Below, one piece after another: positions 12,680-14,691 of a stretch of DNA of 22,024 bases. Below the pieces are notes generated by a model. It worked only from the letters and a program-made list of their open reading frames with translations. It searched no databases and had not been told where the DNA came from. Origin of the DNA: a virus. The DNA lies in IMG/VR virus record IMGVR_UViG_3300010392_000972, positions 1 to 22,024 of that record, one strand, 5' to 3'. Position numbers and translations under genes: made by a program. Positions within the stretch are counted from its first letter, which is position 1, and every line of letters starts with the position of its first letter.

Positions 12680-12711
12680 GGGGCGGTCTTCGGATCGCCC
12701 CTTTCTTTTTC
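12680..12711 (+). terminator. Intrinsic terminator after capsid gene, UUCG loop
   Basis: GGGGCGGTC (12680-12688), loop TTCG, then GATCGCCCC (12693-12701) form a 9-bp stem with one G-T pair and a C(UUCG)G tetraloop, one of the most stable RNA loops. TTTCTTTTT follows at 12702-12710. It lies 32 bases after the capsid stop. The next 75 bases, up to 12788, hold only a weak TATGAT (12725-12730) and a few CTGACA-like words, so a new promoter there is possible but not clear. Transcripts from the capsid side would largely stop here. Confidence 0.85.
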
Positions 12712-12788
12712 TGCACAGCTCCTGTATGATTTCGGCATCCCTGACAGTCGCATGGTGCGGCTGACACTAGCCACGACAGGAGATCTCC

Positions 12789-13298
12789 ATGGCTAACACG
12801 ACTTTTTCGGGACCAGTTCGCTCCGAGAACGGGTTCAAAACAATCACCAAAAGCGCAACCACTGGTGCGGTAACTGAGATTTCGACTGTTGGTGGGGCTC
12901 CAGTAGCACTGGCCGACGGCGATGTTACTCTTACCAACGCTACCCACAGCGGGCGTGTTTTGGTTGTTCCGGATGGCACTCAAGACAACACCTACACCTT
13001 GCCAAGCCCTGTAGCAGGGGCGATGTTCACCTTTGTCTATGGCGGTGCCGCAGCGGATGCGACGGATTTCATCGTAGACGCAGGTTCGGACACCAACTTC
13101 TTCATTGGCAACGTCGCGTTTAATGACACTGACGATGGCGCAGCTTCGGTGGTTTTTGCTGACGGCAACTCCAACAGCAAACTGCAAGTAAACGTTCCCG
13201 GCTCTGCTGTCATCAACATCATGGCGAAGGACAGCACCAACTGGTACGTTTGGGGTTCCGTTACTGGCGCAACCGCTCCTGCCTTCGCTGACCAGTAA
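12789..13298 (+). CDS. Beta-rich virion protein, putative
   Basis: A 169-residue protein preceded by ACAGGAGA. The sequence MANTTFSGPVRSENGFKTI, with many Thr, Gly, Ala and Asp residues and regular short strands (RVLVVPDGTQDNTYTLP, AMFTFVYGG, DFIVDAG, NWYVWGSV), fits a small all-beta structural protein of aquatic phages. No enzyme motif is visible. It is the first gene after the terminator and is followed by two further beta-rich proteins, so it is probably a head- or fibre-associated component. Codons are mostly C-ending. Confidence 0.7.
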   Translation: MANTTFSGPVRSENGFKTITKSATTGAVTEISTVGGAPVALADGDVTLTNATHSGRVLVVPDGTQDNTYTLPSPVAGAMFTFVYGGAAADATDFIVDAGSDTNFFIGNVAFNDTDDGAASVVFADGNSNSKLQVNVPGSAVINIMAKDSTNWYVWGSVTGATAPAFADQ

Positions 13299-13309: not shown

Positions 13310-13936
13310 ATGGCTGGCTCTGACGTAAAAGCCAAATACATCGCAGCAGACACAACTGCTGCCGACGCGGACGGAGTCTGCCAGTCGCAAACTCCAGCTG
13401 GTGGTGGTGAGCAAAATCTCACCATCAACGGCGCGTTGGCATCTGGTGGTGTTGCTACGTTCACAGCAGCGCGATTCATCACAATCGCCTGCGCAGGTGC
13501 TGACGATGGTCGTACTTTCACCATCACAGGCACCGACGTAAACGGTGACGCGCAAACGGAAACGATTGCGGGCGCCGACACCGGCACGTCCACTGGTACG
13601 TTGTACTTCCGCACAGTCACTCAGGTGACTGTGGATGACGACACCGCTGGCGCTATCACTGTTGGTATGGCAAACGATGCTATTGATGTGATCTATGCTG
13701 GTCGCGCGCGTCTGCGCGGGATCTACTTGATCCACTCAGGCACAGCAGGTGTGTTGTCGTTCGCTGACGGCAGTGCAACAGGCACAGCTCATTTGCAGCT
13801 GGCAACTGTTGCTTCTGCAGGCAGCGACCGTGACATCATCATCCCTGATGAGGGGATCATGTACGACAGCGGGATCTACCTTCCGTACACAGCTGGAACC
13901 ACTGTGTTCTCTAGCTTCACTGCTATGTACAACTGA
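13310..13936 (+). CDS. Beta-rich virion protein, putative
   Basis: A 208-residue protein, starting after TAAGGAGG, which overlaps the end of the previous gene. It is rich in Thr, Ala, Gly and Asp with repeated strand-turn units (RFITIACAGADDGRTFTI, TLYFRTVTQVTVDDD, RLRGIYLIHSGTAGVLSF), giving an Ig-like or jelly-roll impression. Residues about 23-75 look like one domain and about 120-208 a second. No catalytic residues are apparent. Position and composition make it a likely head-surface or fibre-base component. I do not recognise a specific family. Confidence 0.65.
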   Translation: MAGSDVKAKYIAADTTAADADGVCQSQTPAGGGEQNLTINGALASGGVATFTAARFITIACAGADDGRTFTITGTDVNGDAQTETIAGADTGTSTGTLYFRTVTQVTVDDDTAGAITVGMANDAIDVIYAGRARLRGIYLIHSGTAGVLSFADGSATGTAHLQLATVASAGSDRDIIIPDEGIMYDSGIYLPYTAGTTVFSSFTAMYN

Positions 13937-13944
13937 GGTGCCAG

Positions 13945-14691
13945 ATGCCGACCTACGACATCAGATCGATTACGCAGGTCGGTACTTCTGAGCCGTTTGA
14001 ACTTCAAGTGGCCAGGGGTCAGATCCCTGGCCACTCTTTCCTTTCTCGTCAAGGCCGTGTTTCGGCAATGTCACAGAACCAAACTGGTACACTGTGGGAT
14101 GTCGACGACACGATTTATCCTTGGAGTGCTTGGGATACCGCAGGCACTGTAACGGTAAGCCGTGCAAACGCCGCTGATGCGGACAAGAATGTGATAATTT
14201 ACGGGCTGGATGCAGACTACAATCCTGTCTCCACCACAATCACGCTGACAGCCGCGTCTGGCAACACCTCCTCCACTGTTTTCAAGCGCATAGACACCGT
14301 TCGAATGAACGGTACGTCTGCAAATGTAGGCCAGATCAATGTGCTGAAAGGTGCAACAACTGTAGGCCGCATTATTGCAGGTGTGGGTCAATCTTTCAAA
14401 GGAACATACACTGTACCTGCAGGCTACACTGCTTACCTGATCCAAGGAACAATGTCCCTGCAGGAAGGCGCGGATGCCAGTGGCTTCTTTTATTACCGTG
14501 TGCTTGGCGACCGTTTTGTCGTCGGGCATACGTTCGAGCTTGCAAGTGCGCAATATACCTACACCTTTGCTTGCCCCCTTGCTCTACCGGAGAAAACAGA
14601 CATCGATGTCCGCGCGACGGTGCGTTCAAACAACGCTCGTGCCACGGCAGCATATGACATGATCCTGATCAAGAACGGAGGCCCGCTCTAA
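13945..14691 (+). CDS. Conserved virion protein (VARGQIPGHS family)
   Basis: A 248-residue beta-rich protein. Near the start it has FELQVARGQIPGHSFLSRQG, a signature I recognise from a conserved structural protein of marine podoviruses. Then come WDVDDTIYPWSAWDTAG, VIIYGLDADYNPVSTTITL, a strand GQSFKGTYTVPAGYTAYL and a C-terminal FVVGHTFELASAQYTYTF. Two Ig-like domains are plausible (about 60-150 and 160-248). Its function is unknown; its place between capsid and connector genes suggests a head or head-fibre component. Codons 22-30 also encode the long RNA hairpin at 14007-14035, formed partly by the only AGG arginine codon of the gene. It ends in TAATG with the next gene. Confidence 0.75.
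   Translation: MPTYDIRSITQVGTSEPFELQVARGQIPGHSFLSRQGRVSAMSQNQTGTLWDVDDTIYPWSAWDTAGTVTVSRANAADADKNVIIYGLDADYNPVSTTITLTAASGNTSSTVFKRIDTVRMNGTSANVGQINVLKGATTVGRIIAGVGQSFKGTYTVPAGYTAYLIQGTMSLQEGADASGFFYYRVLGDRFVVGHTFELASAQYTYTFACPLALPEKTDIDVRATVRSNNARATAAYDMILIKNGGPL
14007..14035 (+). repeat. Long inverted repeat (RNA hairpin) inside a gene
   Basis: GTGGCCAGGG (14008-14017) and CCCTGGCCAC (14025-14034) are perfect complements around the loop GTCAGAT. An A-T pair (14007 with 14035) and a G-T pair (14018 with 14024) extend the stem to 12 bp. TCTTTCCTTTCTC follows at 14035-14047. This has the outline of an attenuator, but it lies within codons 22-30 of the 13945 gene. Whether it ends or slows transcription, affects translation, or is a processing site cannot be told from sequence. 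Confidence 0.8.

Follow-up and report, generated by a model that had tools for sequence, protein, structure and literature searches.

A covarying RNA hairpin inside a phage virion gene abuts a predicted fold over the start signal

The virion gene, its surroundings and the hairpin

The window, meaning the whole 22,024 nt stretch of DNA that was analysed, carries a tailed-phage head module in which the terminase, portal, major head protein and small head genes are followed by an SU10-type adaptor. Within this module a virion gene on the + strand (13945–14691) encodes a 248 aa product assigned to phrog_8198, a family of unknown function. Relatives of the product came mostly from records of cyanophages and other marine phages. 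Approximately 30 N-terminal residues (...EPFELQVARGQIPGH) are common to the relatives, with strong divergence after them. The preceding small virion gene (13310–13936, + strand, 208 aa) is a candidate coupling partner. It includes a hairpin of its own at 13394–13440, about +84 (GGTGGTGAGCAAAATCTCACC), which scored a z of about −4 to −5 relative to synonymous recodings. Further upstream, a match to Rfam RF03012 (Mu-gpT-DE RNA) was found at 12739–12791, in the interval that separates the capsid gene from the following one, and a terminator-like hairpin with a T-rich tail lies before it, just 3′ of the capsid gene (12680–12701). In L012, L019, L249, L274 and L275, extra ORFs were found inserted downstream of the capsid gene, with starts that by eye are like those of GIY-YIG endonucleases (for example, VIYKIRNVVNGKFYVGSA).

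The hairpin, here called P2, is at 14007–14035 on the + strand, where a preliminary description of the sequence had placed it, and spans codons 22–30 of the virion gene (V A R G Q I P G H). The arms (14007–14019 and 14023–14035) enclose a 3 nt loop, the sequence being AGTGGCCAGGGGT-CAG-ATCCCTGGCCACT followed by CTTTCCTTTC. The stem had been described as a perfect 10 bp, or 12 bp with flanking pairs. It is present, though that length is slightly low; 13 pairs were found, 11 of them consecutive Watson–Crick pairs, then a G.U and a U-A, with eight G-C pairs in all. P2 was the most stable 40 nt fold on the + strand of the window, and the segment 13990–14060 folded at −27.4 kcal/mol (z −3.1). When the stretch was recoded synonymously in the window's own sequence (L081 in the locus set), none of 200 recodings folded as well (z −4.9, p 0.005), so the stem is not a product of chance. 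The 13 Arg codons of the gene comprise 11 CGN, one AGA and one AGG and, as had been noticed earlier, the unique AGG is inside the stem. P2 occurs once, no second copy being found elsewhere in the window, and no Rfam 15 covariance model matched 13880–14120, even at E<=1.

The body of the gene (14035–14691, + strand) is exchanged as a whole among phages whose backbones are nearly identical. Exchange of everything after residue 30 was seen in the pairs window/L059, L215/L213, L207/L206, L035/L134 and L209/L080. In phages with 89–97% identical capsid-gene DNA, homology on the 5′ side passes through P2, ends at its 3′ end and is back near the stop codon. The end fell within about 3 nt of the 3′ end of P2 in window/L059, L035/L134, L044/L002, L004/L079 and L209/L080. 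Judged from sequence, the layout of a constant anchor and a variable body resembles that of an adhesin.

Distribution and covariation in relatives

Via the peptide just upstream of the stem, 161 genes were collected and their stem energies scored against synonymous recoding. The z values were bimodal, with about 65 below −2.2 and about 85 near zero. P2 was found in 41 of the 53 loci with a capsid identity of at least 77%, being missing from the other 12, and in one of 54 below 77%. P2 is a trait of one capsid clade. Among capsid relatives in MAG contigs with a capsid identity of at least 77%, no gene matched the anchor peptide pattern.

Covariation was assessed in 63 distinct sequences picked by capsid identity alone, blind to the stem. 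In this set 88.2% of pair cells were paired, compared with 31–54% when the pairing was slid. The covariation score was 0.238 against 0.150±0.007 in shuffles (0/500 as high), and cells with double changes numbered 32 against 8.1±2.1. Individual codons showed the same matching. Arg AGG was found with Pro CCT in 13/13 instances while Arg CGN was found with CCT in 0/40 (Fisher 1e-12), and the choice of AGG, which the preliminary description had tied to the stem, is explained by pairing. Where Ser (TCN) replaced Ala, the Gly codon was GGA or GGG in 10/10 instances, compared with 4/47 with Ala (2e-8), and with Ala at the same place Gly was GGC or GGT in 43/47. A change from Pro to Thr was accompanied by CGT/ACG pairing. 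On the capsid-gene tree, AGG had changed at least five times and Ser six times, and the independent contrasts agreed in 4/4 and 4.7 of 5, with none opposed. As the relatives are not independent and the independent covariation events are few (about nine contrasts), the shuffle statistics are to be weighed accordingly. These are two-sided compensatory changes in independent lineages, the covariation standard for a conserved structured RNA. P2 has been maintained during evolution by silent and coding changes that match each other. The covariation of paired codon bases that had been put forward as a check was thus found, and the compensatory pairs bear out the earlier suggestion that the RNA structure is under selection. 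RNAalifold recovered only five pairs from alignment A1, probably because stemless rows were in the alignment.

Conservation of the GTG codon in the stem was 0.98 in stem-bearing members, a subset picked by stem strength, compared with 0.83 for the best-conserved Val codon of the capsid gene. An internal start at this GTG was considered and is unlikely, as the stem persists in L004 and L007, where this codon is GTT.

The composition of the pairs bears on which nucleic acid is selected. The third base of the Ala codon opposite the fixed Gly G (A3-G1) was C in 41 sequences, T in 18–20, G in one and A in none, although more than half of the Ala codons in these genes end in A or G. Pairs at the first base of the Ala/Ser codon were G-C in 40, G.U in seven, U-A in six and U.G in four, and only G.U wobbles were freely tolerated in the stem. 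That G.U is tolerated while A.C is not identifies the sense-strand RNA as the target of selection, rather than duplex DNA or the other strand; single-stranded sense DNA is formally possible.

Structure at the start signal and in neighbouring genes

The start signal of the virion gene overlaps the end of the upstream gene (13934–13945, + strand), with the stop codon TGA at 13934–13936, an SD-like GAGG at 13935–13938 and the A of the start codon at 13945. The upstream stop thus begins 11 nt before the start. Among the 58 stem-bearing loci that have an ORF upstream, 57 had its stop at most 18 nt from the start, most often at −12 or −11, a proximity that fits translational coupling. When 13920–14040 was folded (−52.5 kcal/mol, z −5.0), two adjoining structures were predicted, P2 and a fold designated P1 (13934–14006, + strand) that ends one base before it. 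The helices of P1 pair the stop codon and SD with codons 19–21 (13934–13939/14001–14006) and the UG of AUG and codons 2–4 with codons 11–14 (13946–13954/13976–13984), and the remaining helices are 13940–13941/13992–13993, 13942–13945/13987–13990, 13956–13957/13973–13974 and 13960–13962/13968–13970, all on the + strand. P2 abuts P1 with no gap, starting at +63 in the window and 57–66 nt past the start-codon A in relatives, and the same layout of P1 and P2 was found in other clade members.

Extra structure in codons 2–21 was shown to be selected. Pairing between the GTSEPFELQ codons and the start region exceeded what synonymous codon choice would give by chance (mean z −0.94 and −1.08, against −0.05 and 0.00 in controls), and the MFE of −25 to +62 against synonymous recoding gave z of −1.84±0.14 and −1.98 in the clade, compared with −0.73 outside it. 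The Gly codon follows codon 2, being GGY in 12/12 genes with Pro and GGA or GGG in 40/44 with Ala (p 3e-9). In genes that start with Met-Ala, AUGGC pairs with the GCCAU of the EPF codons, and in those that start with Met-Pro, including the window, codons 1–4 pair with the codons for QVGT. Most stemless clade members (for example L069, L103 and L142) pair codons 1–6 with codons 20–25 in a long rod, and in more distant relatives such as L087, L032 and L050 the SD, start and codon 2 pair with GAGCCNTTYGAGCTTC-like codons. Homologues that encode VARGQIPGH with no stem, which the preliminary description had named as counting against its proposal, do exist (L066, L070, L064, L024 and L078), but they are not simply unstructured, as the same codons fold into another structure that reaches the start codon.

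The SD and start codon are paired in the fold predicted for the window. In stem-bearing relatives, the mean unpaired probability of the start site was low (0.31) and close to the 0.335 of synonymous recodings (mean z −0.17±0.09). As accessibility is not clearly below that of recodings, occlusion of the start itself is not established as a selected trait. The accessibility of the window's own start was 0.16 against 0.34 when recoded (p 0.08). Recoding P2 alone left the predicted accessibility unchanged (43 stem-bearing relatives, 16 up, p 0.20), so that in the equilibrium model, where coaxial stacking is left out, P1 does not depend on P2. The idea that P2 insulates the ribosome-binding site was dropped for this reason.

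Strong hairpins were also found in other genes of the region. Those of −19 kcal/mol or lower occurred at 8.2 per 1000 windows at +30 to +59, compared with 0.3–2.6 elsewhere, a density 3 to 28 times that of other intervals, and many gene families in these phages showed a smaller enrichment of structure between +30 and +60. Two or more hairpins of this kind were found in each of several phages (L023 and L276), at comparable distances from the respective start codons. The simplest reading is that the hairpins are linked to the start codon and not to one gene or operon position; the possibility of one hairpin per operon position was discarded because several phages carry two.

Individual families provide examples. 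A virion-gene family with KNFR(S/P)TKSGAGMT (L266, L269, L270, L276, L277, L241, L238, L148 and L229) includes a codon-selected intragenic hairpin at about +40 to +75 (for example, CCGCTCCACAAAAAGTGGGGCGG), with the paired changes TCC/GGA and CCC/GGG in its stem. A strong stem of this family and a strong EPFELQV stem were not seen together. Strong hairpins at about +30 to +75 were found in small head genes of the MSRSDIKAKR type and their kin (L016, L002, L023, L041 and L036) and of the MVGSEVTS type (L214, L223 and L219).

Interpretation and comparison with known systems

The most likely reading, which we hold with moderate confidence, is that P1 and P2 form a structured translation-initiation region over the first 30 codons, subject to translational coupling, with P2 as its downstream half. 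This agrees with the translation-control site that was one option in the preliminary description. P1, as the 5′ half, would limit initiation by pairing the SD and start codon with codons 11–21, and ribosomes ending the upstream gene would melt it so that the virion gene is translated. That ribosomes on an upstream gene unwind structures which block the next one is a recognised model of coupling (PMC7538156). P2, which begins on the base after P1, may stack on P1 and keep it shut. Alternatively, it may slow a ribosome whose footprint covers the 3′ strand of P1, keeping P1 open; stacking and pausing would be predicted to have opposite effects. A specific form of pausing, in which P2 acts as a speed bump, appears unlikely. 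The coupled first ribosome would pause with a footprint of roughly +36 to +63, covering the 3′ strand of P1 (+32 to +62), so that P1 could not re-form and the next ribosome would initiate freely. If so, the on-switch would be held by the ribosome itself, and unrelated neighbouring genes that have strong hairpins in the +30 to +60 interval may use the same trick.

The preliminary description had also offered P2 as an attenuator, and an intrinsic terminator that lowers transcription of downstream genes would have a suitable shape, as P2 has the G+C-rich stem (13 pairs, where about 5–14 are usual) and short loop of a terminator hairpin, is followed by CTTTCCTTTC and was the top match of a terminator scan. 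The number of T in the 8 nt after the stem was also higher in stem-bearing than in stemless relatives (3.26 vs 2.05). However, these values are near the synonymous expectation (2.83 and 2.01, respectively), and five or more T were observed in nine cases where 7.3 were expected. The T-rich tail is thus mostly set by the amino acids. Only 8/70 stem-bearing relatives have at least four T in the first 5 nt after the stem, which is retained where the tail reads AAAACTGTG or CGGTTCGTG, and the site is within an ORF rather than at the end of a unit. The stem is conserved and the U tract is not kept with it, and on that account termination was rejected as highly improbable. A role for P2 in mRNA stability or processing, either as a barrier to 3′ exonucleases that protects the upstream capsid and decoration messages or as an RNase site, would fit a stable hairpin just 3′ of genes whose products, to go by gene order, are presumably needed in high copy. 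It is nonetheless improbable, as hairpins recur within a phage at similar offsets from start codons (L023, L276), which suggests that the start codon and not the operon sets their position, and cleavage would destroy the hairpin's own message.

Coat or Com proteins regulate mRNAs by binding in other phages, and a compact, stable, clade-restricted stem could be the site at which a phage or host protein regulates its own mRNA. No candidate protein was identified, several pairs on both arms vary so long as pairing holds, and the loop is conserved no more than its Gln codon requires. Any recognition would therefore be mainly of shape, and we regard a protein site as doubtful. P2 lies where the constant anchor meets the exchangeable body, which raises the question of a DNA recombination site, since near-identical backbones carry differing bodies and the 5′ homology ends at the 3′ end of P2 and is regained near the stop codon. 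Homology is, however, visible only as far as the conserved peptide extends, and the crossover may lie elsewhere than at this border. The tolerance of G.U on one strand only and the different bodies of stemless sister lineages (L064 and L024) also make recombination very unlikely. The chance is similarly slight that P2 is a functionless mutational by-product, with VARGQIPGH encoding a near-palindrome that template switching perfects. Many positions pair whatever the codons, and perfect forms differ between lineages. Template switching would yield Watson–Crick pairs, yet T is kept opposite G while A and G are avoided, and unrelated genes repeatedly have strong hairpins at this offset that encode different peptides.

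Whatever its role, P2 constrains silent sites. Natural variants solve the same stretch in three ways, as a local hairpin, a start-to-EPFEL helix or a long rod, and could serve directly as alleles for testing. Should the class of hairpins at +30 to +60 prove widespread in late virion genes, it would bear on how phages set protein ratios within one late message.

A limited literature search found no strong covarying RNA structure like P2 inside the coding sequence of a dsDNA phage, only analogues. P2 is like intrinsic terminators in the shape and stability of its stem, and unlike them in lying inside a coding sequence with a U tract that is not conserved. It shares with RF03012 the character of a conserved phage RNA near capsid genes, but is separate from that element, which is 1.2 kb upstream. 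In dsDNA viruses structure is avoided at the start and tends to be higher further downstream, as a weak genome-wide average (PMC3072339), whereas P2 is one discrete covarying stem that is far stronger. In MS2, the replicase start is masked by the folded coat gene upstream of it, and the two genes are translationally coupled (PMC9894550). The downstream start is likewise within RNA structure here, with opening by upstream ribosomes proposed, but MS2 is an RNA phage, whereas in this dsDNA phage the start is predicted to pair with codons 11–21 of its own gene, and a second hairpin is directly downstream. The translation-start structure of the phage Mu mom gene is melted by Com (PMC6483171). There, as predicted here, the start codon is in a hairpin stem of a dsDNA phage message, but Mu uses an activator protein and none is known for this gene. 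We know of no counterpart of P2 in Mu. Start-occluding structures and coupling (MS2, Mu mom) and a weak trend to downstream structure are thus already known, and what is new is a discrete covarying intragenic hairpin, with no Rfam match, that adjoins a start-covering fold and is replaced by alternative architectures in relatives.
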